From NCBI RefSeq assembly GCF_020382885.2, contig NC_058498.1:7724501-7788500 (forward strand): a DNA stretch of 64,000 bases. Direction: 5' to 3'. The stretch is from Scatophagus argus (Eukaryota > Chordata > Actinopteri > Scatophagidae). Position numbers and translations under genes: made by a program. Position 1 is the stretch's first letter. The number at the start of each line of letters is the position of its first letter. The notes beneath the pieces were generated by a model. It did no database searches. It saw only the letters and a list, made by a program, of their open reading frames with translations, and was not told the origin of the DNA. Positions 4,125-40,447 of the stretch are shown piece after piece.

Positions 4125-4343
4125 TCATATGAGCCTCTCCATAGGCGGCGGCTGAGTGATGCTCCACATCTCCACCCGCGATCCCTCCTTCTCCTGCCGG
4201 CTGGGACTGTATGTGCCGTGGGTGGCGCGGCGATTTAGCGCCACCACCAGGCCGACGGAGGTGAGGATGAGAGCGAGAAGCAGGACGACGGACACCAGAC
4301 TGACGGACAGCAAGAGGTCGGAGGTCAAACCCTCAGAGGTCAG
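4125..4343 (-). CDS. crb1: crb1 terminal exon 12: membrane span and canonical Crumbs tail
   Basis: The acceptor is a strong pyrimidine run ending CTTCCAG, and the exon starts in phase 0 with LTSEGLTSD. It encodes a run of Leu/Val/Ser membrane residues, then [14 protein letters not shown] and PPPMERLI followed by a stop. It joins exon 11 after CQTD. Because it begins in phase 0, it could also accept the upstream exons of the nested small gene at 5187-5614. Confidence 0.93.
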
Positions 4344-4451: not shown

Positions 4452-4524
<73 letters not shown>

Positions 4525-5798
4525 CTCCTCTCCTCACTACGTTGCACTACACCAGGCGCTCCACGCGCTCTGCCAAAGTGCTGATGGATGTGTTTCCCAG
4601 CTCGGCAGGTGGGTTGCGACCACCAGGAGCCTCAAGTTGCCGCGGACTGAAACCTCCCTCCGTCTGCCGCCTCTCTCGCAGTTTGGCGACGGCCAGCGCC
4701 AGCCCCAGCATCACCACTATCGCCAAGCCAACCAGACACGGCGCCAGCACGGCGGCCACACGTGAGCTGTATGGAGCGCGCTGCGTCTGTGGAGGATCAC
4801 ACACACACACACACACACACAGGCAAGATGCTGCCTGATGATCTCCTTAGCACATACACACCAAACACACCAAAAATAGCTTGTACACACACACACACAC
4901 ACACAATGAAGAAAAGCCGCTTTACATGAGGTGCCTGAAGGTGTTTTAATGACTTGTGAAACCTGCTAAGATTCATTTTTAACTAACAGCCTCGTGGCCC
5001 TTTGATCACCACACACAAGCAGCTTCACTACCAACCAGAAAAACACAATCACCCTGCATGCAAGCACACAGATTTCTGACCTCAAACCCGGTGAATCAAG
5101 GCGAATCAAAGCTTCCAGTGCAGCAGGTAAATCAATGTTAACATTCATTAACCAGCAGCAGAAGACTGAGCAGCACACACACTTACATCAGCAGTTGTGG
5201 TTGGCGTGGTTGGCGTGATAGTCGTGACGGCCTGAGTGGATGCTACAACAGCGCAACAGCTGTAAGTATCACTGCAATCCACTTCACATTTTGGCTGACA
5301 CCATCTTCATAAGTGAAGCCTCTAACTGAACTTGTCAGTTTACACAGACTTTGAACAAAAAAAAATCTCACAAGTCAGCAAACTTTACACTGAGCAATCA
5401 GCATGGAAACATAATTCTAATAAAAACACAACCATCCATATCCTGCGGCAAAAACTAACTGGTGTTCGGCACTGTAGACGCTACACTTCCTTTCCCTCTC
5501 GACAGACTCTTTGTTGACTCCTGGAAAGTGCTTACCTGTCACTGCAGCACAGTTGGCTGTCATAGCGAGTGTGACACAAGCGAGCCGGAGCAGCCTGCAG
5601 CCAGGACCCTCCATCAGTCTCCAAGTGCCACACACACACACACACACACACACACTCGCACAGAGACAAGGAGATGTCTAGCTAACCAGTCTCTAAGGTA
5701 CACGGCAAGGCAAGGCCACCCTGAAGCCTCAGCAGAGTAACTACACACAGAGAGAGAGACAGCAGCAATGCTTCCCTGCTGTCAGCACTATCAGCCTG

Positions 5799-5836
<38 letters not shown>

Positions 5837-8800
5837 CTGCCAGATAAGCTGCCCTCATACGTTTCTGTGATGCACACCGAACTTCTCTGAATGCCACCAG
5901 CTCTCTGCTGAAACTGCACTTCAGCGCCAGATGCTTTCTGTTTTTTTTTTCTTTTCTTTTTTTTTTTGCTGGCGAAGCACATCTCTTCCACTCGGCTTCT
6001 CCTCTCGCTCTCAAAGGATGGCCACATCAGTGCCGACACTGAAAAACCGCTCCCCATTCCCTCCACCTCTTTCGTCACCATTAGGCCTACCTGTGTGTGC
6101 AAAGGACACACACGCACACACACGTACATGCACACATCTAGACACAGACTTGCAAAATGCAGGATGGAAGCTAGGAGCCAGGTGCGTGCAACTTCTTATG
6201 GATTGTGTGGCCAAAAGTATGTGGGCATCTGAACATTACACCCCTATGTGTTTCCTGACCATCCCAATCAAAACCACTCTGCTGGCGTAGCAGATTCCGC
6301 TTTTCTGGGAAAGCTTCCCACAAGAGTCTGGAACATGGCTGCAGGGGATGGCTCCGCTTCACCCACAAGAGCTTCTGTGAGGTAAAGCACTGATGTTGAG
6401 GTCAGGACTCTGCGCAGGCCAGTCATCTTCTTCCACATAAAACTCATAAAAACATTTCTTCATTACAGTTCTGCTTGCCGTAATCACTCGTCCTGCTCAC
6501 GCTGGCCATAAAAAGATCCCTTCCTCATGTGGTTTCAGTGTAAGTCATGCTGTCAAACTGTACAGCCCAAGAAGCTCATCTGAGGCGAATTCTAAAACTT
6601 GCATTTTTGTACAAAATGTGGCCTGTAGAATCGGTCCCCTTTGCACCCGCGTTGAAAGCAGATTAATGAACAGGAAGAATGATTAAAACAAGCAGAACCT
6701 GTTTCTCTGTTCATATAGGAACCTGAGTATTGTTAAAGGCAGACCTGTGAACCTGTCCTGTTTACAGAGCCCTCACCCAAACTGTTGCCTGATGTTGCCA
6801 ATGCAAAACAGCCCCAACCCAACAGCACACGCGTGTACGTAAATGCTGCCGCATTGCCTTCACGCTGTGGGTCCGTGAACTTGGGCTATTCTGGGAACTA
6901 CTCACCCTACATCTTGTCAAGAGAGATTAAGTGTTTACGTTTGTTGTCACAGAAGCCTTCACATGTCTGCTCCTTCACTCACAAACACACACACACACAC
7001 ACACACACACTGATCCACAGCGAGGAAATCAATGAAAGGATTCGGACTGCGGTTAACCTTCAGCGGTTTGTCCAGGGGTGAAAAAATGGAGGAAAGAAAG
7101 TGGAAAGGAAACCAAGTATGTGATGGAAGAGAACAATGTGTTAAGAGAGATGAAAATAGGACAGAAGACAGACAAAGGCTGATAAGATTTCTTTTTTATT
7201 ATTTGACAAGACAGAGACAAGTTTTAAACTGAGACAGGACATGTGGACGATGATGAAGGAAAGACAGACTAATGGACATACATGGATCTTCCAGCGTGAT
7301 GTGAGAAGAACAGGACAAAAGGACACACAATAACACAATCAGGTCGGTGAGGAAGGGACAAGTGCAAGGACAATTTGACCACAGCAGCCCGGTGAAAGTT
7401 GATAAGTTAACGGTCGAGCAGGGCTTTTGTGTCCCTCACTCGGGAAGGTTTAGAGACAGAAACTTCTTCTTTGGTACACAACAACACGCAGCAGTCAGCC
7501 AGTCAGTCAGTCAGTCAGTGAGCACAGTGCTCTGAAAGCACATGGAGAACAAAGTGAGACGTCTCGTCGTCTTCGAGCCCCTGCAGGCGCCTTTGTAACT
7601 ACAACACTGGGTTTTCTTTGATAGTTCACAAATTCATCCGTTTGGAGCTCTCAAAATCCACTTCAGACAAGACTGACAGGATATCTTCAATGAGAGACAT
7701 TATAAATAACACGACATTTCAGCGTTCTTCACTGCATCAAGAAGTGCTTTACAAATGTAGACTATCCTGTTTAGTTTTGTACTGAAGTGATCGTTTGATT
7801 AATCACTTGGTCATTTGATTGAAAAAACAAAAATTGCCAACAACATTCTCTGATTTCATGTAGTTTGGAACTGAATTTCTTAGTTTTGGACTATTAAGCA
7901 CTTTGAATGTGTTGCTTTGGTCCCTGAGAACTATTGCTGAGCATTTTCCAAACAGAAAATGTACAGATTAAACGATTAATCAAATAACTGATCTGGTCGC
8001 AGGCAGCCTTGAACTGTGTTGTGTGTGTGTTGGTTTTCCAAGAGACTTCAGCATCTGTGATCTATATCTCCTTGAATAAGTAACTTACCTGAGTAAAATA
8101 AGTAACTATACTGAATAAGGTGCTTCTCATTACCACCGTCTCAAAGCTTAAGGCACAGATTCAGTTCTGTGGTACCTGACGTCAAACTGAAGAAAACTCT
8201 CACGTGTGAAAACCTGGTGTCCCGTTTAGGAAACCACGGCTCATTCTCATCTTTCCTGATCAGTCAGTCACTCACACATCTGTGCTGACAAACTCCATTC
8301 TGCAGCCAGTCGGACGTGCAGACAAACACACACACACACGCTCAGTCGTTGCCTCCCCAATCTATCTCTGGCTCATCGTCCAGCCTGAGGATGAGGTAGG
8401 AGAGCAGCTGGAACAGGTTCTGCCACAGCAGCACGGCCACGTAAAAGTAAATGTCGCTTACGTCCGTCTGGCACGTGTCTCCGGCGTAGCTCATGTCGCA
8501 CACGCAGACAAACTTGTTGATGAGGTTGCGGCAGTAGCCTCCGTTCAGGCAGGGGTTGGACTTGCACTCATCCACCTCCTGCTCGCACCTGCGGACGCAG
8601 AATCACAGCTCAGTCAGAGGAGGAGCTCCCACAGAACAACTGCTGAATACATGAACATTCAGTCTTATTCAGAGGTGGCTGGTGGAGGAGCCTGCTGCAG
8701 CAAACAGCACTGGCATCAGTGTAACAGAAGAGAAACTGTGAGAAATGTCAGGATACAAGGGTCACACTGTGTTACCAGTCAGCCAGTGGTTGCTCAGTGA

Positions 8801-11800
8801 GCTGTTGATTCTGAAACATGAATGATTGGGCTGATGCCAATTAAAAAACCCTGAAACCGGACTATTGGCTACTTCCAGGTTTTATTTAATAACATTCAGC
8901 TCTTTTTTTTCCTTTCCTACCGGTGTCCAATGAAGCCAGGCGGACAGTCACAGGACAGCTCTCGGTCAGTGCAGTTTCCTCCGTTGAAGCAGGTGTAGTT
9001 TCTGGTGTTATCCCCGCACACCGAAACAGGCAGCTTAGGCCGTCTGGTAGAAGGCAATCAGACATGTGACAGACGGGGTAAAATACATGTGGTGCTTTAT
9101 TTAAAGCAGCATGATCACAGGTGCTGAGGTGCTCAGCAGGGCACGTGAGTTTGACGTCTTCACGTCTGCCGGAAGCACAAGAATCAGCAAAGCAGGAGCT
9201 GTATTGTTCGACTTCCCACAGCCCCCCCACGGGGGAGACAAAGAGGCTTAGCGGGGGAACAGGATAATAAGATTAAAGACCTCCAGCAACTATTCACCAG
9301 CAGGACGTCAAATCATAAATGTCTTCTGTAACCTTGTTTTTGCCTAAAGCACAAAGGCTGTGTTCCTAAATGTTATGCACCTGTTGGGAACTTGGAATTC
9401 ACCCCTCAATGGTTACAAAGAACAGGCTTTTTTATTTCGTAAAGTGTACAATTTTGGTTGCTGAAGTTTTAATTTAGATGCCAGGAATCATTTTTGAACC
9501 ACAGCTGTCAGTCATTTGAACCGGTGGGTATCTCATTTTAAGACAAACAGTGTCACAGGGAGCGTTAATATTAGCTTTGCTTGGCATTTTGTTGCACGCA
9601 GCTGAAGACAAAAAAACAGGAGACATCGTACATGACATTTGAGAGAAGAATATCTAAAAGGAAACAAATAGCGAACACCTGAGAAATAGAAGAAAAAAAA
9701 AAGCAACTTACACGTTTTTGACAACAATGTACCACGGAATTTCTTCAATGCGTTCACTGGAGAGGAACAGAAAGAGAGACGGGGAAAGGGGGTAGAAAGA
9801 GGCACAAACAGGAGACACAAACAAAAAGAAGTCATTTTGATGAAAACTTTGCAGCGTAGATGTTCCCAGTAAAGGGAGATGTGCAGCTTGTCTGGTGTCT
9901 TGCTTAGCGAGACGCCTGCAAAGGTTTTTGCTTGTGCAAAAGAGGCAAAATGCAAGAGGCTGTGTGTTTACAGGATAAATGGTTGGAGGCGTTCCCCTGC
10001 TGGTTCTCCGAGGCAAACGGTAGATGACAGGGGAAAGAAACTGGCGCTGAACCAGAGAGCCGTGTGTAGTGAGACACCACAGCAGACTGAGGCCTTTTCT
10101 GGCTGACACTAGAATAGAAATGCAGCATCTGAGACGCTCGCTGCAGGCGTGGTTGAAATGCTGAACAGAGGCAGAGATGTGGAGACATTTACAGTGGAGG
10201 ATTTTGTTTGTGCTGTTTGTGTGGTCCCATGTCTCTGCAATTTGGAGCATTTATTTGCCTACTTTGTGTTTACTGACTAACTAAGCTCTCAAAACTGTCC
10301 ACAGGAGAGCAAAGCCATCTACAGTGCATGAAATATTTATATTGGGATTGTTTCCTCCTCTGTTTCCACAAGCCTTTTGCACTCACTGAAAACTCGCTAT
10401 TCTGCTATATTTTATATTCATTCAATCTCACTCTGTTGTCCTTCGCTTTTGTTCATTCAGCAAACAGCTCAACTTACTTGCAGAGGGGTCCAGTGTAGTT
10501 CTCAGGGCAGAGGCAGGCGTAGCTGTCCGGCCCGTGCAGACAGGTGCCTCCATGGGCACACAGGTGGTTTTCACACATATCCACCTCCTCATCACAGTTC
10601 ACGCCTGCGAAACCAAACTCGCAGGTGCACTCGTACGTCAGCCCTTTCACGCTGCAGTTGCCTCGAGCGCAGGGACCAGAGGCGCAGGTATTTGTGAAGA
10701 AGTCGCAGCGTCTCCCGGCCCAGGCCTCGGCACAGCTGCAGTTGTAGGTGTTGAACAAGTCCTGGCACTGGCCTCCGTTCAAGCAGGGGTTGGGCTCACA
10801 AACGGGGGCCCCGCCGCAGCCGAGGAGCGGAGGGTGCGGGGATGTCAGGATGAACTGCTCCTCCTGCAGACGCGGGAGGTTCACATCAGAGGAGCTGAGG
10901 TAAGACAGAGCGATGCCACCCAGCTCTACTGTGCCCAGACAGCCGGCCAGGGGCCATCCAGCATCAGGGGCCAGGCCTCCTAAGAAGATGTCCACCCCCT
11001 GCCTGAGGAAGTCCAGGTTGCCTCCTTGGCTCACGGAAGTGCTGGCCTCCTCTATTTCGTCATCCAAAACCATAGTCCAGCGGGAGGTTTGTGTCCACGG
11101 TGTTGCCATGAACAGGTGGACACTGTGCCACTCGCCATCGCTGACGCTCATCCTGCTGCTGAGGCTGACTGTAGACACACCATGGTCCTCCTGGATCTCC
11201 TTTTCAGTGTTGCTCTGAAGCTCCATGAAGAGGAAATCATCCTGGACAGAGAGTGTGATGAATGCTGAGCCCGTCTCTGCGTGAAGTATAGCTGCGTTAC
11301 GCTTACGCGTTCGAAGGTTTAGGGAAAGGTTAGTTAGATTGCGGGATATGTGGCCATTTCCCCGGTAGGACAACACAGTGCTGTCATTCAGGAAAGTTGC
11401 ATTGGAGTAGCCTGGGAGATGAGAGAAAATATCTGTTGAGTGTATTTGAATTCATTCATTTACACACTTGTTTTGTCACGCCATTAAAACTCCCTTGTCG
11501 GTTGGATACTCGTTTTTGATTATGTAGTAGAATACAACAAGGTCATTAGTGCTGAGGGCTGGTTCACAGGTTACAAAAACATCATTACAGCATGGAATTT
11601 ACGTGTTTCATAAGACCACAATCCTTTTAGGAGACAAGACGAGGTCATTTATCAGAAATACTTGTAAGGAGCAGGTATCCTCAATGAGTTAATCACTCAA
11701 CATGGGGAGGATCACAGGACAGACGGGAAACACGGCCAACCACCACTAATCCCAGCAAATAAAAAAGGATAAACTGGACTCAGGCCAATCCTGCTTTACG

Positions 11801-14800
11801 GAGTACATACAGCATACTGTGTGGGTGGATTACAGCCAGTACATAAGCAAACATGTTGTGTGACTAGTTTATGTCGTGGCAAATTAAGTCAGTAATGACC
11901 AAGTGCGCAAACAAAGTCCGAGATCAGGTAATGTATAAATACTCTAACAAGGTTCAAGGGCTTTTATTTAACTGAAATTATGTTTTGTTATTGTCTTATT
12001 GTCTTTGTTTTTACTTTTATGTTTTTTTTAATTTATGTCAGTTTGTTCACTTATGTCAACTCTGATTAACGGTTTCTCATGGACTTGAGTTTGACTCCCT
12101 GAAAGACATAACTTAAGACTACTTAATTATTAGGCCCACGGACTGAACGCACTTGGTCACAGGAGATCGTTAATCTCCAGCAATTTGCCTGAAGATTTGT
12201 GCCAAAACTTGGACCTCGCTGGTTGTGAAATGACGCAGCGTGTCTCAAATGAAATGAAAAACACATCTGCTTGTGTTGAAATGTCGCATGCCACTTACAC
12301 TCGTATCCCTGGTTCAGCATCCTGCACTCTGAGTCTGCGGGGCAAGGTGACAGCTCGCACCACCTGACCTCCTCACAGCGCCGCCCTGCTGTCCTGGAAG
12401 GGCAGACGCAGTTGAAGTCATCCCACGTGGAGTAGCACATCCCACCGTTTAGACAAGGGTTCCTCTGAGGATGAAGAATTGATACAGGGCCTTACTTTTA
12501 CCAAAAGATAACTAAAACCCAACAAAACATAACTGTTCTGTCAGTGACCGCTTTAACAGACATGAGTGTGAATTTTAAGCTAAATTTTAAAACAATTCTA
12601 CATGCCCTAAGCTACAAAATAGATATACTGTCAACAGTGATAGATGCTGGACAATTAACAAATATTGAAAAATAGTAGACTGTTTATACAGGCTTTTCAC
12701 TCACACTGCAGATGTTGTCCCCAGAGCATCCAGCAGTCACATTTTCCATGAGCTCCAGAGGGTAAGAGCTCAGTGAGGTGTCCAACCCAAAGAACTGCAG
12801 CCTCCTGTTATTGATCCTCAGGTCCTGGATACAACCTTTAAAATATCCACCAAACACTGAAGTCGTCCTCCTCTCCAGCAGACCTCCCACATGCACAGTG
12901 TCTCCTGCCTGGACACTGACGGTCCTGACCTCCATGTCGCCCTGTTTCTGAGCTGTTACATAGAGTGCAATATGATCTTTCACCATCTCCAAACTCACAA
13001 AGTGGACTTCCCCGTCATCAATCGCACTCTCCGCCTTCAGGCTCTCAAAGTCATTGAGCTGAACTGTGACCTTGCCGTCCTCCAGCCACATGTGCAGATA
13101 TCGGCTGCTGCTGTTGGCCAGCGCCAGGAGAAGTCCACTGTGCCTCCGTGTGCGCAGGAAGAGGGAGATGGAGAGGTCATGACCCAGATCATCGGTGACA
13201 GTGAACGCAGCATAACTCTGAGAGTCCTCATTCCCAAAGCGTGCAGTCACGTGTTCTGCAAAAAAAGGGGGGAAAAGGTAAACGACAATGAGAAATGACA
13301 AAATCACAAGAGAAAAGAGCCAGTGTGCACTGTGGTATTAATTTCTGGAAGTTCAAAAAAGTAATTCAATTGCAGTTTGTAGAGAAAGGACTACGATAGA
13401 AGAAAACAACAGTAGACTCAAACATGACAAAAGGAGAACTGGAGTGCATGTAACCTCATGTCAGTGTCCACCACAAACGTTTCTGTTTATTCTGTTTATA
13501 TCATCAGCACGGGGGGTGTAAAACAAGTTATTGTTTTCTCATTTGTTCTGAGCATTGAAACTAAATCTAAAAGAGCATCACGATAGATTTTTGTTGCAGA
13601 AAAAGACATTTAAGCGGTGCATGCTGAGGTCCCCGAAGGAACAGACACAGGCAGAGGACATCTAAGCAGCCAGCAGCCCTCATGTTCTGTATGTTCTGTG
13701 TCCACTGTCAGCACTTTCCACTGTGGGTTTGTCACTTTATAAGGCAGGCAGGACTTTGAGAGCATGTAAGGCTAAAGTAGAAAGGTCATATAAAAACCTT
13801 ATGAAAGCTGCAGTGAGTATGTGTGTGCATGTGAGCACTTGTGTGTGCCAATAACCCATCAGACACTGTGATCAGTAATCTGCTTTTAAAGACTCAAGAG
13901 GTTATAAATATCCTCTGTGGAAGCTATTAAACATATTTTCCGATGAAATTTGAGTGACAAATTCAAACTATAACTTTTTCAGTGCACTTTGATCATTTTA
14001 TTTCTGACGCACTGATAATCAACAGCTTACTGAATGCTGTAACATTTCCTTGCATGTTCCGTGTATTTCCAAAATAGGATCCCTTATATCCTTAATCCAG
14101 TGTGTTAGATAAGAGGATCTCTGTCTCAGTCCTTTACTGTGGCTTTTGATTGGCCTCATCTCTGACCCCCCACCCCCCCATCCTCTGCTACACATCAGCT
14201 TCTGAGGATGTTATCCAATTACTCACTTAATAAATTTGGTGTGAATATACACTTCCCTCCGGTCTCAATTAATCAGGATAGCTTAAAGCTTAGTAGTTAC
14301 ATGGAACTTTCATTTTTGGTTATTCAAGTGGTTACACGCACACCTTCCCTCCTCCAGTGTTGAGGCCATGGTTAAGGCCTTGTTCGGAGGAAACAGTGGA
14401 GCTGGAGAGATTATGTATTGCAACTCTGTCCCCACTGAGAAGCCAAGGACACGTCATGGTAGCCACATCCTGAAGCGCACCCTGCTTCATCAACTGTTTT
14501 ATTCTAAATGGGTCTATAATTCACAAAATAAAAGAACTTAATAGGAAACTGTTGACTGAGGTTAAAACAAAAATAAATAAGGTGAGACGAAGGGTCATAA
14601 CCTTACATTCAGACTTCTTTTTGAAAGCAGTTGGGTCACTCTCTGCTGGCCATTAGAAAGAATGCAGGTTCACACGCTTTTTCAGACCCGGAAGCTCTGC
14701 TCCAACTTTTTATTCTGTCTACGGGTCAAACTAAGCACCGTTCATACACGTAACTCCCACGTAATCCTACAGCTATCGGATTTGTTTGCTGGGTAACAGA

Positions 14801-17800
14801 AAATTTGTTGCGCTAAAGATGAAGTTACATCAAGAAAAAGCTCAGTAGCAAGGCTGGCATAAAATGTTGTGTTATTAGGCATAAAAAGTTGGCATAAAAA
14901 AAACAAAACCCCAAAATATAATAGCCAGTCGTCTCAATGTGCTCTTGTGTTCCTATTTAGGTCCTATAGAGGTATCAGTATTCCTTGTAGTACTACTAAA
15001 AACTGTCATACCTACTTATAATCTGGTGATGGAATATGCTGATGGGACTAGCAGATTTATATTTATATAGATTTTTTTATTATTATTTCTTTTATTTCTA
15101 CTCTGTATTGCAGCTACTTGACTGTGCAAATTCTCCCCATGTTTAACTCTATGATTTCACAGTGGTGTACGTACCCTCCTCACAGTCATGGCCCTCATAA
15201 GGTCTTGGACATCGGCACTGGTAGCTCTGCCACAGGTTGACACACTGTCCTCTGTTTTGGCAAGGCACATCGAGGCAGCGGTCCCCGTGGCTGCAGCCGG
15301 GGGACACATTAACAGCAGAATCGCTCAGCCATTCCTCAGGGACGATGAGCTGCCAGTCCACAAACACATCCTGCATGCAGCCAATGAATGCTGGAAGCGG
15401 AGAGTCCTCATTGGGGCCATTTGAGTCCTGAAGCACTCCTCCAATGAAAGTGTTCTGTGGAGGTGACACCAGCCCGAATAGGGTGCTTTGGACTGGGGCC
15501 ACCCTGTGGCACGACTGGCTCTCACAGCTTCCAGCGTCATCCAAGAGTTTCAGACTGAGCACCCACTTTCCAAGCACAGCCTCCACAGAATGCCACTCTC
15601 CATCTGTGACATTGTGGGGAAGCTCCAGGGCCTGGCTTGGGCTTTCTGCTACAGCCCCAGCAGAGGCCTCCTTTCTCAGTGTGAGACGAAGCTTCCCTTC
15701 ATCCAGCTCCAGGCTCAGCAGAAGCCCCCTGCTGTTCCGCTGGAACAACACCGCTCTGGGCAGAACAGTCTTGAAGCTGAGGGTGATGTTACAAGACACC
15801 TCAGCATCCACCAGGGGGCTCTGCAGCAGCAGGTAGCCTCTGCGCTCAAAGGAGAAGGTGGTTGGGGTCTTACAGAGGGGTCCAGTGTACCCAGGTGAGC
15901 AGGAACAGGTGTATCCGTGAATCCCATCCAATAGGAAGGGAGAGCAGGAGCCTTGGTTCTGGCATTCATGTCCATCACAGCCTTCTAACCTCACATCACA
16001 ATTTACTCCCCCATAGAGGATGCCATTGTGACTCTGTTTGAGGCAGTGGCAAATGTAGCCTCCGATGCGGCTCTCACACCTGCCCCCATTCTGGCAGGGA
16101 CTGGGGTCACACTGGTTTATCACCTCCTGACAGAGGGAACCTGTAAGTAGAGGAATACAATAAAGTAACATCACTCAAGCCCTCTTAAACTTTGTTACTG
16201 CTGTCACTAAAACGTGATTGCAGGTGTAAGTAATGGACTGTGACCTGATTTTAATTATTCTGCTGGCTGAAGAGTGATTGTGATTATTCCTTGTTCAGTG
16301 GTCTTGTGAGCAATAGATCTTCCTTCTACTGTTTACCACAAACAAGTAACAGTCAAGTACTTGTGCTGGGTTATTATGTGGGCCGATTACATAATGACGC
16401 CGAGTGAGGAAAACACTGGACATGTGCCCATTCCTTTCTCCCATTTTCCTCCATATTTGTCACGTTGTCATGTTCTTAGGTGTGTTATGTTTTGTTTTGT
16501 TTTTTTCACATTTCTGTGACTGGTGGCACACATTGGTCAAATAATAAATTATTTATTTGCATTATATTGGTATGAAGAAAAATACAAAAGAACACATGAA
16601 TTAAATAGATGTTACGTAATACTTATTATGCGTAATATAATTATATATACGTAATATCTATTTAGACAAAAACAACCTCTGATGTTACCTGTTCCGAGCA
16701 ACAAAATCCCCCAAATCCATGGTGCGGGTGTCCACATCATGCCGTGACTTTTTCCCAGAGGACAGCTCCAAATTTGTCTAACTGCACCATGTTAGTCTGT
16801 GGTGTGCGAACAGGTCCATCCCAGAGAAGGTCTGCTCCTTGTCTAGTGCTCTACGACCACAGAGGGCTAAGTGGCTCCAGTCAGGAGACCAGTAAAGCCA
16901 GATCCTGGGGATTAAACTAATACTATTTGGCCACCTTACTGAGTCAGTGCCACAGCGACTGGCAGAGAGTCAATTTTTAGAACACAACTCTCAGCAGGCA
17001 ACAGCTCACAGTCTTACCTGCACTGCTCGAGTCTTGTGTAAGCAGGAAAAACTAGAATTTTCTGCTTTCGCAACTGAAACGTTTGATGGATTTGATTTGA
17101 TTTCATAGCTATGTGACAATGCAATATATGCAGGGACATCAATGCATCAACAATATACTATAAATATATAAATGTTATTAGATGGAGTATTATTAGCTAT
17201 AGCAGACCACATTTCTCTCATTTAGCTTATTTGTAATTGATTAATTAGGTTCTCATTTCAGATTTCACCGCTAGAACAAGCTGAAAACAACATTACAGCA
17301 AATTAAAGCTACCAAACGCAGCTGAGTGATTAGGGCATTTTTTTTTATTTTTTTTCATCTCTTTAAAATATTTTACTGGGGGTGCTGAAATCAGAAAATG
17401 TCAAATTCAAAGGGTCAGTTCACTAAACTGTCCAGGGTGCTGATACTGATGCATCTGTTAAGTTAAACCTGATCTGCAGTGTTGGAAATGCTGATGAAAA
17501 GCCACCTCCACTGTTTAGTTGGTTCAGTTCCCCACGTCTGCCAGGTCAGTCAGTTTTGCTTGTCCACTCTCACAGTGGTTTTTCTTGTTTTGGTGTTCAC
17601 TTAATCAAAGAAAAATATTAGATTTTCTGAAGTCATTAAACCTGTGATGGGTTTGTGGTGTGACTCTGCATTTCCAGTTAGTTGTTAAGTTCAGTCCAGT
17701 TAGTCTTTTCTTTTCCAGGATGGCAAAGTCATCTCTGTCATCCTACTCTGGCTAGCGCTTGTTGTCTCTGTTGGTTAGGCTCAGGCAATGAGGAGTGAGA

Positions 17801-20800
17801 TTTGTTAGGGTTAGGTTAAAAATATTAGGGTAAGCCAATCAGAGGCAGGGAGGAAGGGTCATGCATTTGCTTTGTGAAAAAAGAAATAAATCATAAATCA
17901 TTGTGACCGGTGTGAAATCAGTGAACCTTTTCTTCTTCATGAGGAAAAAAAAAGGCAGTGTTACAATACAGAGAGCAGATGTAGAGTACAGTAGTGGAGA
18001 ATTACCATTTCACCCTGCTGTTGCTTCGACCAGAATCTGCTCACTGACCTGACCAGACATCTGCGATAGTCATGTCATAATACAAAACAATTTTGAGATT
18101 TTTGTAGTCCTGTCAGCCTGAACTAAAAACACAAAACAAATCTCTACGTACTGCAGAATGCACTGGAAACCACTTGCTGCTGCGTTACCATCATTGGATG
18201 CCTGTGAAAACATAATGAATTCCACTTTCAATTACCTGTTGTTCCTTGAAGACAGCTGCAGATGAAGCCTGCAGCATGCTGCTGGTCATAGTGTTCAGGC
18301 AGCAGAGGCTCACTGCCATACAGGGCCTGCCATGACCTCTCAACGCAGCGGCCTCCGTGCATGCAGGGGTTGCTGCCGCACTCATTGACGTCGATCTCAC
18401 ACTGACGCCCCTCAAACCCTGGGATGGGAAAGCAGATGGTGTTTCTGATGGGGATAATGCAGATAACTTACAGCATATATGACATACTGTGGAGATTAAA
18501 TAATAGTCAGTTTAGACATTAGAAATGTCTGTTTGCTGTTGTGGATGAGTTTACAATGCAATGCAATACACACAGAATGAACAGTATGATGCTATAATGA
18601 GTATACAAAGTTAGTATACTTCTGTGTCACTTTCACTCGTCTTATTCTCGGTACACAAATTTGTTTATCACTCATTTTTTCTCTTTCTGGCTTAGTATAC
18701 CTGCCTCTGTTGACCTTTCGAAATCTCCTTTAAATCTTTAAAACTGCTATAACTCACCAATGTATCATTTTCTTAACCGAGAAAGAAAAGAGGTGTTTCT
18801 GTACCTGGCCAACATGCACAGGTGTAGTTACCCTGGTTGTCCTCACAGATGGCGCTGTTGAAGCAGGGTTCAGAGCGGCACGGTGGTAGCGCTGTCTCAC
18901 AGTGTGTGCCCGTGAAGGCTGTGTGAGAGCAGTCACAGCTGTAGCTGAGATAATCAAGGATGCAGAAATCACATCATTTAGATTATTTACAAATTTTGCA
19001 TACAAGTCTGAGTTTACAGGTGTAAAATTGAAAACTACTAGGAATACTGTACAAAATAATTTTGCTTTTAGAGGCTGCAGCTTCTTCTGTTCGGTGACTG
19101 GAGCTCAGCGGCTTACTCATTCACTCCATCGATACACAAAGCCCCATTCTGGCATGGCCGCTCTTGGCACTCGTCGATGTTGATTTCGCACCGGTGTCCT
19201 TGGAAACCGGACAGGCAGGTGCAAGTGAAGCCACCTGGGTAGTCATGGCAACTGCCGCCATTGAGACATGGCTGTGATTGACACTCATCAATCTGAACCT
19301 CACAAGTGGCCCCTGTGAAGATTAAAGCAGTGGAGAAGTCAGAGGGCGAGTGAGCCTGGGAGACAGACTGAGGGCAAAGGGGCAAAAATGAACAAAGCTT
19401 TTTCTGGCTGTGATCATGTTTGGATTGCTCTTTCATCTCACAACAAGGCTTCGGCAGGTGTCTGCAGTTCTGCAGTACGTACCTAACAAATTTATCCCTG
19501 CACTTACGGAATACTAACCTCATGAAACGTGGGAAAAAGATGATGAGAATGAAAGTTTAATATGAATCAATACAACTAACTATGACAACTTTATAAATGG
19601 GGCTAAGCCAAAAGAGCTTTAGTTTTCTCTCATAACTAAAAATGGTTTGGAATCCCTACACCCCATCTAATCACAAAGCCATCTGTTATTTTACTATTGC
19701 TATGATGTGGTCTCCTACTTAAGATGCCCTTAGGAGACCTGGCACTGTTCTGTGTATACTCACCAGTGAACCCAGGAGAACACACACAGGAGAACCGGCC
19801 CACTCGGTCCACACAGGTGGCTCCGTTCCTGCAGGGCTGTGAAACACACTCATTCACATCAATCTGACAGTGAGCGCCCTGAAACCCCGGCACACAGAAG
19901 CACGAGTAGCCATCCCCGCGGGTTCTGCATATTGCCCTGTTCTGACACGGGTTTGGAGAGCACTGGTCCGCTGATGAAGGCAGCCTGTCGGGGGATGCGC
20001 CTAGGAACAGATCACATTTCGAAATATTAATATCACAGAACATCACTATGCTTGGTGATCAGGCTGAACTGGAAACCAGTGTTTTCCATCCATCCATTTT
20101 CTATACCGCTTATCCATCAGGGTCGCGGGGGAGCTGGAGCCTATCCCAGCTGACTACGGGCGAGAGGCGGGGTACACCCAGGACTGGTCGCCAGTCAATC
20201 GCAGGGCCAACACACAAAGACAAACAACCACACACTCTCACACCTATGTAGAGTGCAATGTAGAGTAGCCAATTGTGGGAGGAAGCCGGAGAAAACCCAC
20301 ACAGGCACAGGGAGAACATGCAAACTCCACATAGAAGGGCCCAGACCGGGATTCGAACCTGGAACCCTCTTGCTATGAGGCGACAGTGCTAACCACTGCA
20401 CCACCATGTTTTCATTTCTCCTAATAAATGAATTGTTTTAGGGTAGGAAAGGAACAACAGTTTGTTACAGATAAGAGTTTGCATTTGTCACTTACGATAA
20501 AATTTACTTCATAACATCCAACTGTCTCTAGATTACTGATTAGGAAAGTTGCTCTGCAGCACAGATCAAACTCCTCAGAAGCTACGTGACTATTACAAAA
20601 AGAATTCGGTCCAAACGATCCCATTACTGACTGAGTTTGCTTCTGTATTACATAAAAATGGTGAGTAGACGTGCTCTCAGTTGCTGTTGTTAAATGATCA
20701 TGTCTGACATGAAGCTCTTTTATCACTCTTTAGCTTGGACAAAAACGCTCTGTCTAGCAGATGTCAGAACAAGAGCTTGAAATTTAAGGGCCTCTCAAGG

Positions 20801-27300: not shown

Positions 27301-30300
27301 ACAAAATACCGAGATGATCCCGAATATGTAAGCAAACAGTATACCAAGTCTAGAAGCCTGTGCTAATCATGACTTATGTATGATGAAGGATCATTTATTA
27401 ACACTGACAAGAACAGCATGTTTCACTCAGTGTTTCATCAGGCTCTTGCTCTGCTTATATCCAGATTTTAATGTTTTTGTGCATTAACTCCTGCCTCATC
27501 AAAAATACTGTATGCGGACTGTGCTGCTCGGGTGTGTTTTTTTCTGCAGATAACATCCCTGTCATAACCACAACATATTTAAAGATGTAAAATTTGTATA
27601 TGAAAAACGAAAGCGCTCAGAGATTCTTTCAGAAGTATAGCCGTCTGTACATACCAGAAACAGTGCAATGAAATGTCTTACAGATGGAGGGTCTGCTGGA
27701 TTTGGTTCGGGTGGAGCAGAACATCTACAACATTGTGTTCCATGAACTGATCAGGCAGGTCAGCGTGAGTTGTGCTGAGAGAGGACAGCTGCTTGCCAAG
27801 CTCAGGTTAGCAGTCAACACATTAGTGACAGCAGCTAAATGGTTAAACTGGATGAATGAGTTTAATGAACTGAACCAGTTAAAATCAGACTGTGGAAATA
27901 TGGATGGGAATAAGAAGTCATATAAAATGAAGCACAACTCTAGAATATTATTGCCTTTTTGTTAGCTTAAGTCCGTTAGTTCTGTTAGGTTAATTTTGAA
28001 ACAGGATTTGACACATATTTATTCACCTATAAATTTGACGTTTTCTGAAAGTATTTCCAGTAATGACCCCAGGAAGCTTTTTTCTCAGAAGCCCTTGTGT
28101 TTGTGTGTCCAGACAGCGCTACCAGTCCCTGCTCCAGCGAATCCCCCACCGTCTGAAGGCTCTGCACACTGAGGGAGTGGCGCAGCGGACTCTGGACCGG
28201 CGGCTCACTGAGGAGATCCACCACATCAAGACATCCATGCAGCACCTCAGCACGTACGTAGGTTAGGTGTCAGGCTGCTGGGTGGTGATTTAATAACAGT
28301 GTGCTATTATGAAGTGGTTTATTTATGGGTGTGCAAACCTCTTCCCAGGGAACTGTCCAGAATCAGAGACCACGATGCCTTTGTTTCCCAGCAAGCAGAG
28401 CGTGCTCACCAGCAGCTGGCTGGTGCCCTAGAGCAGACACACACCAACTCAGAGTCAGTCCTTTGAAACATGGAAGTTGTGTTCACTTAGTCCAAGTCAC
28501 ATTTGCATTCCAACGGCATGAACATTATGAGTGATTTATTTCAGGCAAATATTTCAAGTGCAAGTGCAGTTTAGTAAGCATGCAGTAAAAGTACAAAATG
28601 TGATCAGGTGTCTCCTCTCTTCTCAGTGTGGTCCAGGGTTACCACGAGCTGTACGAGCTACAGAGGATTCGCCTTGAGGCCCAGCTGCTCCACATGACTG
28701 AGGAGAGAGACTGCTGGAGTCAGCTCACCTTCTGCCTCGCCCTCAAGGTGTGTGAGCCATTCTGCCTTTTTTAAAACCTCATTTGTTTTATGTGCAGTTG
28801 GCGTAATGTTATGCTGGTTAAATAATCGAGTAACTGGTTGTGCAATCAGAGGGAGTGAGAATGCAGACCAACATGGATTGTTTTCGTGTATGGAGTGCTA
28901 TGGCCTTTTTTGTTGGAGGACCCTGAAGGGAGACCTGGAGGGCCTGCATAAGGCATTCATTAAAGTGTGAACATGCGGGTGGCCTCATTTTAATTTTCTC
29001 GAAGATGCTCAGTAAAAACAATATCAATTAAAGTCAGTCCAAACAAGTTCAGCGTGTTGTTCTGTGATTGTCAGTTGATCAGTCTGAAGAAGCTGAAGCT
29101 CATGAGTCAGCTGCATATCAGCGAGCAGAGCTGGTTCAAGACAGCAGAGCACTGCAGCCTTTACCTCACTTCACAGGTAACAATGCAGTTCCTGTTTCTT
29201 ATCATTTTCAAAAACCTTTAACACAACACAGGAGACCTTTTTAAGTGTTACTGGTGGTTCAGTTGCATTTGGACTTAGAAAGTGACTGTCCTGCTGCAGG
29301 ACACACAGGACCTGAATAACATCATGGAGTATATTAACCAATGGAAGGAGAAGTTGACTGCTTTCACATCCCAGCTGAAGAAGAAAGAGCATGCTCAGTG
29401 CAACCAGCTTAGTGACATCCACCAAGGCATCACCAAGTGGCTCAGCGATGGCTCTACACAGAACAAGTAAGGACAACCGAAGATGGGAAAGGAGATAATT
29501 TAATGTTTTGTTTTTAATTGTTTTTAATATCACCACAAAACTTTTATGACCTAATTTAGCATGCTTGTTCAGTCCAGTGAAGTCCATTTGTTGATAATGA
29601 GCAGTCCAAGTCATGGAGAAGAAGATGAGTTTGTGTGTGTATTCTGCATAAGATGCTCTTTCTTTACCTGAAGGTGTCCTGATCCCAAATATGAGAAGGC
29701 TTCACTGGAAAAGATTTATGCTGATTTGAACCAGTGGTTAAATGTAAGACAGTCCATTTACTTCCTGTGTGTGTGTTTGTCTTTTACTGATTATGGTCAT
29801 TGATGTTATCTCTCTGATGTATCTAAACTTTGTCATCTGTCTTGCGTCTTTTTTTTTTTTACATTAATCTTATTACTGTTATCTGTCTAATCTGTCTCAG
29901 CTCATGTCATGTTTTTGATCCAGTCACATCATCTCATCACTTAATCTCTCGTGATAATTATCACTTTTTCTGTCTGGTCCGTGTCATCCCCTTCGTTCTG
30001 TCACCTGTCGAACCTCTGTCGTTTGTTTCCTTCACCTCACATGTCTCATGTTTGTCCACTACTGATCACTTGTTACTCAACTGTAGAAATGAATTAAGTG
30101 TGAAAAATTATCTACATGGTTCTTAACTGAGGAGTCTAAGCATGTTTAACGTAATGTTTTAGCATCCATTTTCACATTGTATTCCAAACATCTTATGGAT
30201 ATTTTAAAATCTGGGTCATGAGGTATATCTAGTGAACAGGAAACTTTCCTTTGTTTTCCTAATGCCTTCCTCTGTATTCTGTTTCTCTGCAGGCTTTGGT

Positions 30301-33300
30301 CCTCCAGTGTGAGTGCTACCAAGGCGAGAAACTGCTTTGCTGCCAACAGACACTGGCCGAGCTCGGCCACGTCCAGGAAAAATGGCTGAATATGAGCCTT
30401 CGTCTGTTCAGAAGACACCCCTCTCCCAATGGTGAACCCCGTGGAGGCCAGCAAGCTGTAAGAGAGCTGGACGGGGTCCTGTCCGAGCTCCTCAAACAGC
30501 TGGACACGCAAGTCAGCGGAGATAGCGGTGAGGGCCATCAGAGTCACAATTATGAATAGTTCCTCTAGGAATTTTAGTTGAAATAAATGAAATGATTTTG
30601 AGATCTACCAACAGCTAAGCAAAGTATACACTTTCATGTGGCATTGCTTTAGATTTTGCTTGACAGTAGTCCAAATGGGTATCTGGAAACAAGCGGAACT
30701 ACTGACTGCTGCAAAAATATGACTATGGTGATTGTCAGATTTTGCAGTCCTGACGCTCACTCGCAGGCTATAGTCACAGAATAATATGCTGTATATCTGT
30801 CTCTTGTGTTTTATGAATGTTTTAATGGATCTTTTGGAAAAGTATTCTTAAGATATGGGCTAAAGTGTTGAAACTGATTCCAGCCATGCTGTTTCAGGGA
30901 CCCACGGACAGATCACGTCTCTGCTCGGGTCGATGGAGTCCTGGGTTTCCAAGCTTGGAAGAGTGATTGGCCAACCAGAATTGAAGCCCGTCTCTGACTG
31001 GCAGAAATTGGAAAAGGCACTTTACATGTGGCAGAGCTTGGCTGAAAAGGCCTTGCAGAGCATCTCCTGCTGGCAGACAGAAAACAAGAACAAAAACAAC
31101 ATTTATGACCCATAGTACGTTTTTCATGCAGTGGTATCACTAGTTGTCATGAATTGGAGTCTCGTACATATAAATCTACTAGGTTTAAATTTATACAACA
31201 ATCTGTCTTAAGACAACTGGCTGAAACAATGGATGAATGGAAAAGACAGATGCTTCATTGATCAGCATTTTGTAGATAAATTTGTAGAAAATGCTGAATG
31301 TTCTTTAGTACATCTACGCAATTGTTTCACTTTCACTTTTAAGTGATCTGTGACCTATAATGAACAAGTAGTTAATTAACAGAGTCGCAAATACTTTCCT
31401 GCTTTTTCTGTAAATTTACATTTAAATTTCCATGTTTTAACATGGAAATTTAAATATTCCCTGGTTGCTCTTTGTTTCTCTTGTGTGTGTTGTTTGTTCT
31501 AACAGTACAGAGACAGAAAAGGTGGTAGGCAAAGTGCAGGAGTTCGTAACCAGCCTGTCAAACTTCACTGATGGTGAGAACCAAAGACTCAATGAGGAGG
31601 TGAGTGCCAACTAGTTTCAGTCAACCTGTCAAGGAAGGAAAATGCTGCAAAAACATATCAGCTCCATGAATGTCATGCACAGATATTCTTGTGTTTCTTC
31701 TTTGTTGTTTACAACATTAGCTTGTACAGTCAACCACTTAGCAGCAGTTGTGGTTTCTGTCCCTGTGTTTCTTGATCAGGGTCATGTTCACAGTGGTTGC
31801 TGGGGGAGAAGAGATTCTCAATATTTTCCTTTTTTTTATCATTCAAATGACCTTTTTGGCTTTTTCACGTTCACGCTCTTTCAAGGTCTCGTCACAGGTT
31901 TAAGTGTTACCTCTCCTACCAGGTCAGGTCTATTCACATGGCTCAGATTCGCTGGATGTTGGATCTGTTGCTCCTCATGCTACCTGACCATAGCGAGGAC
32001 CAGACCCAAGAAGAGGAACACCACATAACAAACATTTCACAGCAGACATTGGAAGAGGAGGCCAAGATGCTGGCTGAGAAACTGGACTCTTTTTCCAGAT
32101 ACATCATCAGGTAGAGGTTTTTACCTGTTTACTACAGAATGCAGTAAAGTTTTCTTTAACATTGAAAGTGTCTTTTATAAAAATTTCTGACTGGGGGAGG
32201 ATCAGCAAAGAAGAATTTACTGGAGAATTTACGTTTGTTTTTAACTGCAGCTCTTGCAAGCTGATTCTGGAGGAGCAGACTCTGCAGAACCAACATGACG
32301 TTGATGTTGAAAATGAGATGAATGAACTCAAAAAGCTACAGGTAAGCAATGTTCTGAGTTCAAATAAATAAATAGCAAATAACTGATAGTTATATCAGGG
32401 CTGCATGTTTTTGCGTGACACAAGTAATCGGTGCTCGCAGTACACTTGAACACTCAAGACAGATATCTAATTGTGTTTTACATCTGCACAACCGGAAGAA
32501 AAAATATATTTGACTGAAACCATTTTGTCTGGACCATTTCTCTGAAGAACAATATAATTAATCAGCTGCTGTAATTTTTTAGCATACACCTATAGAGTGT
32601 TTTTTAGAGTAAAGTCGAGAATGCAGCTCTTTTTTAACAGTGCAGTTACAGATAAGGGTGAGTATCATAAACAAGCCAACATCTGGCTATGTGTGTGTAT
32701 ATCCTCAGAGGGAGGGCATTGATTGGGTGGAAACCTGTATGATCCTGCTCTCAGGAGTGAAAGGTGATCCTGTGGATCTGCCCGTCAGAAAGGCTGACCC
32801 TGCCACCAGCAGCGATGTCCAAGTCTCCCCAGCAGACAGCACAGAGTCTCTGGTGAGGTGTCGGTTAAAATACCCTCCATGTGGATAGAACTTGTTTATG
32901 AATTAATCACAGCAATGTTTGTTTTTTTATTTTTTTTCATTTTGATAATAGCCTTTTGTGTGTGTGTGTGTATGTGTGTGTGTGTGTGTGTGTGTGTTTA
33001 CAGGAGAACAATGAGGTTTCAGCAGAGCCTACAGCAGAGACTGAACTCGAATGTGAGACAGAATTGAAAGAGGTGATTCGTACTGCTGTGCCGTATGAGT
33101 GAAAAGCTCAGTGATATCCTGTAAGCATTTAGACTGTGTTTGAGAAAATGGAACATCGTGACTGCACAGCTTTAAGCTCATTCTGCAGTCTGTCCCTTGT
33201 TAGTGGGCACAGTGTAGTTTATCTAGGCATTTAAATAATTAAATATAGCGTATATTATTTTCTAGTGATTTAAATGTTGAAGGAAGAGCAGTATAGCAGT

Positions 33301-34963
33301 AGTACTGTGTCATATCAGTCCTCTTAAAGTGTAACCAAGCAAGACACTGAGGACCAGATCCATTCTGTTGTGTGGGACATCTGTGCTTTTAGTCAGCCTG
33401 TCAACACACCTATAGTTGGTGTCTGTATGCCTCTTTTCAGTTACTTGTGTGCCAAAATATTTTTTGTATTGTGAAGGCTAAACTTTTGATCAGTGTGGAC
33501 CTGACTAAAGTATAGAAAAGTTATTATATTGTTTGAATAATGGCATTGAGTTAGAATTTTGACCAGCGCTGTTTGGTTTACATTTATTGTATGACATGCA
33601 TTAACGTGATAATGTGCAGCTGTTACCAAATGAATGCTAAACATGATGATGATGATTAGGGCAGTCATGGTAATCTTGTTTCTCCACAGTGTACCACTGC
33701 AGGACATGAAACACAACAGGAGCTTTGTCAGGTATTAATATGGTTTCCAAACATCCCGGGATTGTCTGGAAGAGTGAAATTAGTCATTTATGTTGAAGGT
33801 TTTAGTGATTTAGTGCTTTGTATGATAAAAGGCATAACACGAACAACATGTATTTTTCTACATTGTATTCACTGTTTCCTTGAGAATTTGAATTTGTTGA
33901 AGACAAAACTGTTCTAAGTAATCAAACTCTTGAGGAATACAATGGATTTTACAAATGATCAAAGGAGCAAAGCTTGTTTTGCATGCTTATTGTACTGTAC
34001 TATCCAAGTTAAGTTGCTAAAAATGAACAGTATTGCTGTTGTCCTGCAGGGGGAGCTAACGGTTTGTGAGAGCCCAATGGTGAAGCTGATTGACTATGAT
34101 GGAAACATTAAGCAAAAAAAGCTTGCAGAAAGCAGCGTCCACCTGAATGGGGTCAGACAGTTAAATCACCCACTTTTAGTATTTTACTGTCATGTCTTTT
34201 ACTGTGTATACAACCAGACAAACTGCCTGTCTACGTCTCGGACCGTCTGTCTGTCTGTCTGTCTGTCCATCTGTCTGTCTGTCAGACTGAGGAGCTTGTT
34301 CGGTCTCCAGTGACGAATGAAGCACAGAAAGCTTTCAGTGATTTGACCACAGTAGGACTACTGCAGCAGGAACTGCAGTAAGTTTATTATCATTGGAGTC
34401 GAAGACACTTTTACATCTTCCAGACTCAAGTGGAGATTATTAGGCAAAATACTATCATAAGAACAATAAGGAAATAAATATATATTCGATTCACTGTCGA
34501 GTTCAATAACCCTCAACCATAAATAAGTTTGTAGAAGCAGAGTTTCTTTGGACATTCAGAAATGACCACTGTGGACCTCTACTGTAGTTGTGTACTTGCA
34601 AAGGTCATCCCGCTTAGATTTCCTTCCATGTGTTTGTCAGTGACTCCGAGCTGCGGGTCCAGAGTGCCGAGCAGCGAGCTCTGAAGGCTGAAGAAGCCCT
34701 ACAGGCAGCGTTGGAAAAGATTCAGGACCTGGAGAGACAACTGCAGGGTCCTCCCAGTCTGGAGGCCAAAAGTAGAGAAGGTACCAGATAAACAAAAACA
34801 TTGTATAAACAGTATTAAAACTTATACATGTATTTTTTGTGTTGCAGAGAAAAAGAGAACCCCACCACCTTCACTGCCAGCAGTAACACCTCCAGCTCCT
34901 CCAAAGAAAACCACAGCTGAAGCCAAACCGGCAAGCAGCACCAAGAGGACCAAGAAACGGTGA
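24372..34963 (+). CDS. axdnd1: Axonemal dynein light chain domain-containing protein 1 (26 coding exons, 1009 aa)
   Basis: A coiled-coil protein of the sperm axoneme/manchette. Exons: 24372-24441, 24977-25134, 25219-25322, 25585-25672, 26009-26094, 26922-26978, 27179-27287, 27684-27805, 28113-28253, 28349-28453, 28627-28747, 29075-29176, 29300-29466, 29674-29743, 30293-30527, 30898-31114, 31506-31599, 31923-32110, 32251-32341, 32709-32852, 33004-33072, 33690-33731, 34050-34151, 34286-34377, 34641-34780, 34848-34963. The frame is continuous. The N-terminus ([16 protein letters not shown]) is disordered. Residues about 110-390 carry the dynein light-chain-like domain ([12 protein letters not shown], then [18 protein letters not shown]), followed by long helical segments to about 775, an acidic low-complexity part, a coiled coil (about 925-965) and a Lys/Pro-rich basic end, KRTKKR. 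Length is close to the human protein (about 1012 aa). Its nphs2 and tdrd5 neighbours match human 1q25.2, which supports the name. The intron after exon 4 uses a GC donor. Confidence 0.95.
26150..26845. repeat. Dispersed repeat in axdnd1 intron 5 (second copy at 39117-39365)
   Basis: The part at about 26586-26845 shares a clear series of blocks with 39117-39365: GAAACTGTGCTG, GTAGTCCA..AACTCATTGGTT, CAGACATGGATGTAA, CAACTTGACT and GGTAATTCTAGTT. The 26150-26260 part (GTCCATGCATCCGTCTCTC...) also looks like a common fish repeat. I cannot assign a class, and no coding sequence remains. Confidence 0.65.
31420..31455. repeat. Perfect 15-bp inverted repeat with 6-base loop
   Basis: Left arm ATTTAAATTTCCATG at 31420-31434, loop TTTTAA, right arm CATGGAAATTTAAAT at 31441-31455. 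The arms are exact reverse complements. It lies in axdnd1 intron 16. Confidence 0.95.
32957..32997 (+). repeat. (TG)n tract directly before an axdnd1 acceptor
   Basis: A (TG)n run with one interruption, followed by TTTACAG and exon 21 at 33004. The repeat occupies the place of the pyrimidine tract. Confidence 0.95.
34242..34284 (+). repeat. (CTGT)n tetranucleotide tract forming the pyrimidine tract of axdnd1 exon 24
   Basis: About ten CTGT-type units with one CCAT interruption. The final unit, CTGTCAG, is the acceptor of exon 24, which begins at 34286. Confidence 0.95.
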
Positions 34964-35302
34964 TCTGATAAGGTGTCACAATGTGTGGGACTGTCCAGTT
35001 AATGTTGGTTGAACTATTTTTAAAAGCATATTTGGGGTTTTATATTCCATGGTTTTTCTCTGCCGTAATAACATCAGAGGGGACCCCTTCACCTGCACAG
35101 CATCATCCACCAATGCTGCCACATGAGTAAGAAAAAAGTATTTAGAGTATCAGGAGGTTGTACAATATTCAGACTTCTTGGCTGTTGTACCAGAGTGAAT
35201 GTAATTAGATTGCCATTCATATAACGGCTTGCTGTGGTTTTGTTTAACCTTGTGTCTGTGTCTTCCATGTAAAGGCAAATTAGTTTTGGTTTTCATCCAA
35301 AA

Positions 35303-35308
35303 AATAAA
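35303..35308 (+). terminator. axdnd1: Poly(A) signal AATAAA for axdnd1
   Basis: Canonical hexamer 340 bases after the axdnd1 stop. It is only about 40 bases from a minus-strand AATAAA at 35345-35350 that could serve nphs2. Confidence 0.7.
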
Positions 35309-35344
35309 GAGATGACATTTTGAAAAGTTAGACTTTCCTTGGCC

Positions 35345-35525
35345 TTTATTTACAAAACACAGAAATTGTCAAAATGTTAAACACACTCAGTTTATCTCCA
35401 ATTAAGACTCTCTGACCCTTCAGTGTTCGTCACTCAACTTCAATATCAGTCAGAAAAATCTTTAATATGAGATCATATTTTAACCACAAATAAACACAGT
35501 AATTTGGCTGGAAGTTTACTTTATT
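35345..35525 (-). terminator. nphs2: Candidate poly(A) signals for nphs2
   Basis: Minus-strand AATAAA occurs at 35520-35525, about 130 bases past the nphs2 stop, and again at 35345-35350. Use of the distal one would bring the nphs2 transcript almost onto the end of axdnd1. Confidence 0.55.
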
Positions 35526-35653
35526 TAACATGATCGAAATCTTCTGAAGCTCCACCACAAGCTGATATTTGCTGGCTCACACTCTTCTTGGCTCTTCAAT
35601 AATAATTACCATTTACATTTCACATTAATTTCAACCAATCCCACCACAGTCCG

Positions 35654-38600: not shown

Positions 38601-38718
38601 CTGTCTTTGATGGCCTTTGTCGGTGACTTCTGGGAGACGCCGAGGCTCCCCTCTCCTTCCTGGGCGTCATTCTGGATCTTGGAGGGTGACTGGGGTGGAC
38701 ACTGGAGGACTTCTCCAT
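35654..38718 (-). CDS. nphs2: Podocin (7 coding exons, 370 aa)
   Basis: A stomatin/prohibitin-family hairpin membrane protein that scaffolds nephrin at the podocyte slit diaphragm. Exons: 38415-38718, 38088-38191, 37577-37649, 37224-37306, 36581-36840, 36005-36083, 35654-35863. The N-terminus is basic and Ser-rich, with STVVDIDSVREDE matching the podocin motif. The membrane hairpin (about 106-136) ends PFSIWFCVK. The PHB domain (about 137-300) contains REHERAVIFRMGHLLRG, VDIRLKMLKVP, VTKDLV, ICYY-like VCYYQIEN, DSVACRWGIRVER and ELQQSLAAEAEAKRQQQVR. The end, DSPMM, parallels human DSPML. Exon lengths 104, 73, 83 and 79 equal the human ones as I remember them, and 260 equals human exons 5+6 fused. 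The tail after QVR is 69 residues here, about 92 in human, and lacks the conserved GTPAAVQLRYLHTLQ segment. An in-frame ATG ten codons upstream (38746-38748) is an alternative start; I chose MEKSSS by similarity. Confidence 0.93.
37084..37195 (+). repeat. Truncated copy of the dispersed repeat seen at 20092-20407
   Basis: CCATCCATCCATTCATTTTCTA, then TACCGC, TTTATCCATCAGGGTGGCAGG and GAGAGGCGGGGTACACCC match the start of the larger copy. It ends about 30 bases from nphs2 exon 4, inside intron 4. Confidence 0.75.
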
Positions 38719-39116
38719 AGTGGCTGGAGGCTCTGCAGTAAAGAGCATCAAAGTGATGGCTGTTGGGATGCTTCTGCTTGATGGGCTGGTGGTAGGCAGA
38801 GAAGAAAGAGGAATTTTATCACTTTTACTGCCGTGAGTTACTTCCTCTGGCTGGAGGTCTGTAACTGGAGTCAGTGGTGCTGCCGTCTGCCGTGTTAATC
38901 AGGCAGAATATGTGGATTGTAAATTAGGTTGACTGTTGGACTGTGGGAGGACAGTAGTGGGAGTGCCACTGCTTTGTTTATCAAACAAAGTCAATTCAGT
39001 GGACCTTTCTGAGCGTGATACTTAATATCTGCTGTCAAACTAGCAAACTAAAACAAAAGAAAATGTTGAGATAATAATGTGGATCCTGGATCGGTGACAC
39101 GAATCTCAAATGCCTA

Positions 39117-40425: not shown

Positions 40426-40447
40426 TGTTCTTACTACTGTAAGAACA
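40426..40447. repeat. Perfect 9-bp hairpin near the presumed tdrd5 promoter
   Basis: TGTTCTTAC, loop TACT, GTAAGAACA. It follows a CpG-rich patch (GAACGCGTCGTCGTCTCCGC). Confidence 0.85.

Follow-up and report, generated by a model that had tools for sequence, protein, structure and literature searches.

The last intron of crb1 in Scatophagus argus raises the question of whether a second, small Crumbs gene can be housed inside a large one. The DNA analysed (the window) is a stretch of 64,000 nucleotides from contig NC_058498.1 (assembly GCF_020382885.2, positions 7,724,501 to 7,788,500), and positions are counted here from its first letter. The first-pass annotation had described a complete CRB3-like gene within crb1; the presence of a CRB3-type unit there, on the same strand as the host, is borne out by the sequence, while its standing as a complete gene is plausible but unproven. 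The preferred reading, that crb1 carries a small nested Crumbs gene of CRB3 type within its last intron and on its own strand, is judged probable on sequence grounds, and the unit would be classed as CRB3-like, short of a proven CRB3 orthologue.

The host gene looks like crb1, not crb2, on the basis of a CRB1-B-like end, CRB1 letters and the neighbouring genes. Upstream of it, a block at 27672-46218 contains domains of an axonemal dynein light chain (27672, plus strand) and of a Band_7/podocin-type protein (36580, minus strand); on the plus strand, three OST-HTH stretches are found at 41-44 kb and a tudor domain at 45.7 kb. These neighbours resemble the human 1q25 genes AXDND1, NPHS2 and TDRD5, which stand in that order. 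The coding segments of crb1 lie on the minus strand and include a laminin-G and EGF coding ORF recognised by Pfam (10474..11451), other EGF/laminin-G exons spanning 12126..20058 (ORFs 12126-12491, 12687-13337, 15152-16174, 18231-18467 and 19639-20058) and the ORF 8342-8602; an EGF match at 8917-9057 is slightly below the Pfam cut-off. The penultimate coding exon (EGF; 8462..8588) has a phase 0 donor. The canonical last exon (4125..4343) encodes a membrane span, a segment of 36 residues and the stop, its C-terminal end being read as a sequence of 30 residues, and it matches Drosophila Crumbs (PDB 4wsi, E 4.7e-8).

When the penultimate donor is passed, a second membrane-type end (17 residues) is obtained, with an AATAAA at 7200 on the minus strand. 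This read-through end (8345..8461, minus strand) contains a CRB1-B-like tail of 14 residues, matching the mouse CRB1-B end at 42.9% over 14 aa (E 0.003; PMC7335077), and from the sequence a CRB1-B type 3' end seems to exist in S. argus too. In the 3' region of crb1, all three terminal coding segments are followed by an AATAAA (7200, 4452 and 3160, minus strand), a pattern that would suit a gene using three 3' ends.

Between the penultimate donor (8462/8461) and the canonical last exon, which begins at 4343, lies an intron of 4118 bases (8461-4344), and the nested unit falls within it, as had been claimed. Its three minus-strand exons join in frame, with GT-AG borders, over 375 nt that encode a protein of 124 aa (MEGPGC...VERLV) followed by TAG. 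The first coding exon (5536..5614) provides the ATG and a signal-like hydrophobic stretch (26 residues) and ends in phase 1 at the donor CAG/GTAAGC; the ATG has G at +4 and C at -3. The second (5187..5242) encodes a Thr-rich stub (19 residues) and is entered in phase 1 and left in phase 0, giving phase 1 at the exon 1/2 junction and phase 0 at the exon 2/3 junction; a second possible acceptor, in phase 0, is present at 5231. The third, which includes the stop (4547..4786), encodes a membrane span, a juxtamembrane segment (15 residues) and the VERLV end. Both this end and the ten-residue block beyond the membrane span, to which the first-pass annotation had drawn attention, are found in the product. 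The poly(A) signal AATAAA reported 3' of the nested stop was confirmed at 4452-4447 (minus strand), with a GT-rich stretch downstream, and lies 104 bases upstream of the canonical crb1 last exon. An origin of the unit as a retrocopy is ruled out because it has introns.

The best evidence for a nested gene comes from exon 1, a strong and unusual signal-like start exon in the right phase. A screen of ATG-to-donor candidates of 46-159 nt with a donor score of at least 4, on both strands and in all phases across the whole window, gave 435 candidates. Seven of these combined a donor score of at least 8 with a hydropathy of at least 1.9, and nested exon 1 was the single candidate that combined the same hydropathy with a donor score of at least 11.3, a cut-off chosen after the exon was known. 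Within 8340-5260, two start-exon candidates are in the phase 1 that is compatible with exon 2; nested exon 1 is the better of the two and the other is non-hydrophobic. According to weight tables for donors and acceptors, the donor score of exon 1 is matched by 0.08%, and that of exon 2 by 1.15%, of 3901 minus-strand GTs. The acceptors of exons 2 and 3 are mediocre, with scores matched by 15.3% and 4.4%, respectively, of 4386 minus-strand AGs, compared with 0.71% for the acceptor of the canonical crb1 last exon.

Other measures of coding character add less. An open stretch of 79 codons, such as that in exon 3, cannot be called rare (it arose in 4077 of 200000 draws, with discarded draws kept in the denominator). 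A codon-likelihood model built from 1041 crb1 codons is not discriminating and fails to single out the nested reading frames: exon 1 reaches 0.32 bits/codon (attained by 4.7% of random open stretches) and exon 2 reaches 0.18 (13%), while exon 3 reaches 0.41, against 0.36 and 0.35 in its two remaining frames, and values on the opposite strand rise to 0.43. A scan of 5500-6500 with a sigma-70-type model gave no promoter-like sites, a bacterial model that says nothing about a fish promoter, and the same bacterial scan gave one terminator-like site, with 0.8 expected in shuffles.

The affinity of the product with CRB3 was assessed with working versions of the human CRB3 and CRB2 sequences as queries. 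The final 20 aa of the CRB3 query agree with the available part of PMC6237394, and the query retrieves Drosophila Crumbs in PDB (E 4.1e-5). In tblastn against the window, the CRB3 query matched nested exon 3 (4759-4607) with 44.7 bits (E 5.4e-9), at 43% over 51 aa; its match to the canonical crb1 tail reached 43.1 bits (E 1.9e-8); the best of 500 shuffles of the query within span and tail reached 33.9 bits anywhere in the window, and none reached at least 44. The CRB3 tail alone scored 34.7 bits with the canonical crb1 exon and 33.1 with the nested exon (best of 500 shuffles, 25.8). With crb1's own tail scoring about equally, the CRB3 match shows a relation to Crumbs proteins more securely than it shows the unit to be CRB3.

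Local alignment of the nested tail gave scores of 74 with CRB3, 62 with CRB2, 44 with the neighbouring crb1 tail and 34 with Drosophila; in 2000 shuffles each, none reached the CRB3, CRB2 or crb1 score and 0.6% reached the Drosophila score. Identity to the CRB3 query is centred on the ten-residue block, in which 9 of 10 residues agree. A recent local copy of the crb1 last exon is disfavoured, the nested tail scoring higher with the CRB3 and CRB2 queries than with crb1; this ranking could also arise, however, if the tail is conserved and the copy evolved fast. In wider searches, the nested 124-aa protein had no relevant match in PDB (E up to 10), Pfam or NCBIfam, and the nested exon was not retrieved at E up to 5 by the Drosophila Crumbs tail or by the C-terminal 20 aa of human CRB3. 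Bacterial and viral contig collections gave 387 and 31 pattern matches, none confirmed as relatives by tblastn, an outcome to be expected where fish are not included.

In its general build, the predicted product is like vertebrate CRB3 (human CRB3A, zebrafish Crb3a/Crb3b): about 120 aa, a single span, an N-terminal hydrophobic stretch, a Ser/Thr-rich stub, a juxtamembrane block KLRE-RQTEG and a C-terminus of ERL plus a hydrophobic residue, encoded in the order of start exon, stub exon and membrane/tail exon. Across 19 residues counted from residue 58, the membrane span has a hydropathy of 2.71, and it is followed by the basic KLRERR, and EGF and laminin-G domains are absent from the 124 aa (Pfam, E up to 10). 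The N-terminal stretch, as judged from a hydropathy scan only, reaches 2.03 over 10 residues and is short and interrupted by an Arg. The nested unit differs from vertebrate CRB3 in its place inside crb1, in GGFSPR for GTYRPS and ERLV for ERLI (human letters as in the CRB3 query), and in a pre-terminal segment of 11 residues that fails to align with CRB3 NLKLPPE.

Some of these deviations have counterparts in other Crumbs proteins. The FERM-binding motif of Crumbs has been given as RxxxGxYxPS (PMC5968619), and the nested motif, the ten residues RxxxGxFxPR, matches it at 3 of 5 residues; F in place of Y is also seen in a placozoan Crumbs (PMC5968619). The pair of aPKC sites, TxGT, is incomplete in the nested TEGG, in which the first Thr is retained and the second is Gly, and such sites are also missing or partial in the Crumbs of other animals (PMC5968619). 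The nested C-terminus is ERLV, against the canonical PDZ-binding ERLI; CRB3B ends in CLPI (PMC4668553) and C. elegans CRB-3 in EGLI (PMC4359734).

The altered FERM motif and C-terminus, the weak acceptors and the codon statistics, which are no better than those of other frames, are all consistent with a decayed or decaying Crumbs copy, one whose exon 3 formerly functioned and whose exons 1 and 2 are joined by chance or are relics. Against such decay stand 124 codons free of stops and frameshifts, a span and ten-residue block that look conserved, and an exon 1 that is unusual within the window, and this explanation is considered very unlikely.

Nested exon 3 resembles the canonical last exon of crb1 in having a phase 0 acceptor and a span followed by a tail, and the Arg of the FERM motif is residue 40 from the start of the former and residue 39 from the start of the latter. 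This shared phase 0 start and near-equal register suggest that the two exons are homologous and that one was duplicated from the other. Their 19 aligned residues, with the score of 44, fall below the scores of CRB3 and CRB2.

The same phases allow the nested exons to be joined to crb1 itself. The penultimate crb1 exon can be spliced in frame from 8462 to nested exon 3 at 4786, both borders being in phase 0; it can also enter exon 2 at the acceptor 5231 (5231-5187) and continue in frame to exon 3. An alternative crb1 end is therefore a serious rival. Exon 3, alone or preceded by exon 2 from 5231, would then be an alternative last exon of crb1 with no separate promoter, yielding a long EGF/laminin-G protein that has a span and tail of CRB3 type and ends at the AATAAA at 4452; this nested end would be used beside the canonical and CRB1-B-like ends. 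The presence of an AATAAA for each terminal coding segment favours this explanation, as do the differing intracellular domains that mammalian CRB1 gains from alternative 3' exons (PMC7335077). It leaves unexplained, however, the strong donor of exon 1, the signal-like stretch and the phase that fits 5242. Splicing from the phase 0 crb1 donor to exon 2 at 5242 causes a frameshift, and a separate start is therefore favoured for the three-exon form. This explanation as a whole is judged unlikely.

Alternative promoters and ends inside crb1 are themselves not foreign to the gene, being found in the mammalian CRB1-B and CRB1-C isoforms (PMC7335077). CRB1-B keeps EGF/laminin-G domains and is without the Crumbs tail motifs, whereas the nested unit is without EGF domains and keeps a Crumbs-type tail. 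C. elegans, too, has a Crumbs protein as small as CRB3, and its C-terminus, EGLI, is likewise deviant; this CRB-3 was described as a gene without a signal peptide, and the available part of that paper makes no mention of nesting in a large crumbs (PMC4359734).

As a nested gene of its own, the preferred reading, the unit would have a transcription start of its own upstream of 5614 and would not use the crb1 5' exons, and the transcript would be spliced and polyadenylated near 4430. The predicted product would enter the ER through its N-terminal hydrophobic stretch and cross the membrane once, as a type I protein, with a short, Thr-rich and probably O-glycosylated exterior. Its cytoplasmic tail would have a weak hold on FERM proteins, and ERLV would bind PALS1 and PAR6 through their PDZ domains. 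The ERLV-PDZ contact would retain the product apically, where it may act as a compact polarity anchor in epithelia, like CRB3. Because the FERM motif matches at 3 of 5 residues and one aPKC Thr is missing, FERM binding would be expected to be weaker or differently regulated.

A different consideration is whether the unit corresponds to a known gene. Possibly, though this is not the expected outcome, it corresponds to a teleost crb3 that already has an annotation (an orthologue of crb3a/crb3b, or a crb3-like gene) and whose place inside crb1 has gone unremarked; this explanation is compatible with the mechanism of the nested gene and concerns novelty only. The presence of two crb3 genes in zebrafish (PMC5676222, PMC11129452) favours such an identity; no map position for either was found in the available parts of the literature on these genes. 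Zebrafish crb3a is expressed chiefly in the ear, whereas the main site for crb3b is the digestive system (PMC5676222). A Crumbs gene nested in crb1 was not found described in the titles, abstract openings and passages surveyed, mostly from outside the subscription journals, so that this negative counts only weakly towards absence.

The position of the nested unit also bears on the origin of CRB3. Human CRB1, CRB2 and CRB3 stand tail-to-tail with DENND1B, DENND1A and DENND1C, respectively; the window stops 3 kb past the 3' side of crb1. CRB1 (1q31), CRB2 (9q33) and CRB3 (19p13) lie within a set of paralogous regions, and a literature search found no paper on these map positions. The paralogous regions, in human 1q, 6p, 9q and 19p13, have been attributed to early genome duplication (PMC1578592). 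If these map positions are right, CRB3 occupies a place in which one would look for a large crumbs gene, and the expected ancestral state would be a large crumbs with a CRB3-type unit within it. The first-pass suggestion that the unit records the origin of CRB3 would agree with such positions. It is tentatively suggested, as a somewhat doubtful proposition, that the nested unit predates the vertebrate genome duplications and that the ancestral large crumbs held a small Crumbs in its last intron. With the same reserve, the 19p13 copy may have lost the large gene and kept the nested CRB3, and the fish crb1 copy may retain both. CRB3 would then be the survivor of a vanished crumbs gene and not a shortened one. 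A duplication within teleosts, or a relocated copy of crb3a or crb3b, is equally open as an origin. The parts consulted of the literature on Crumbs genes gave no explanation for the origin of a small CRB3 beside the large CRB1 and CRB2, and a CRB3-type gene inside crb1 offers a concrete and easily testable account.

If the nested gene is real, deletions or edits of the crb1 last intron in such fish would affect two polarity genes, and part of the reads assigned to the crb1 3' end would come from another protein. GT-rich repeats directly precede the acceptor of nested exon 3 (4800-4833, minus strand) and lie between the nested stop and the poly(A) signal (4453-4519, minus strand); these repeats will be an obstacle to read mapping and may also influence splicing.
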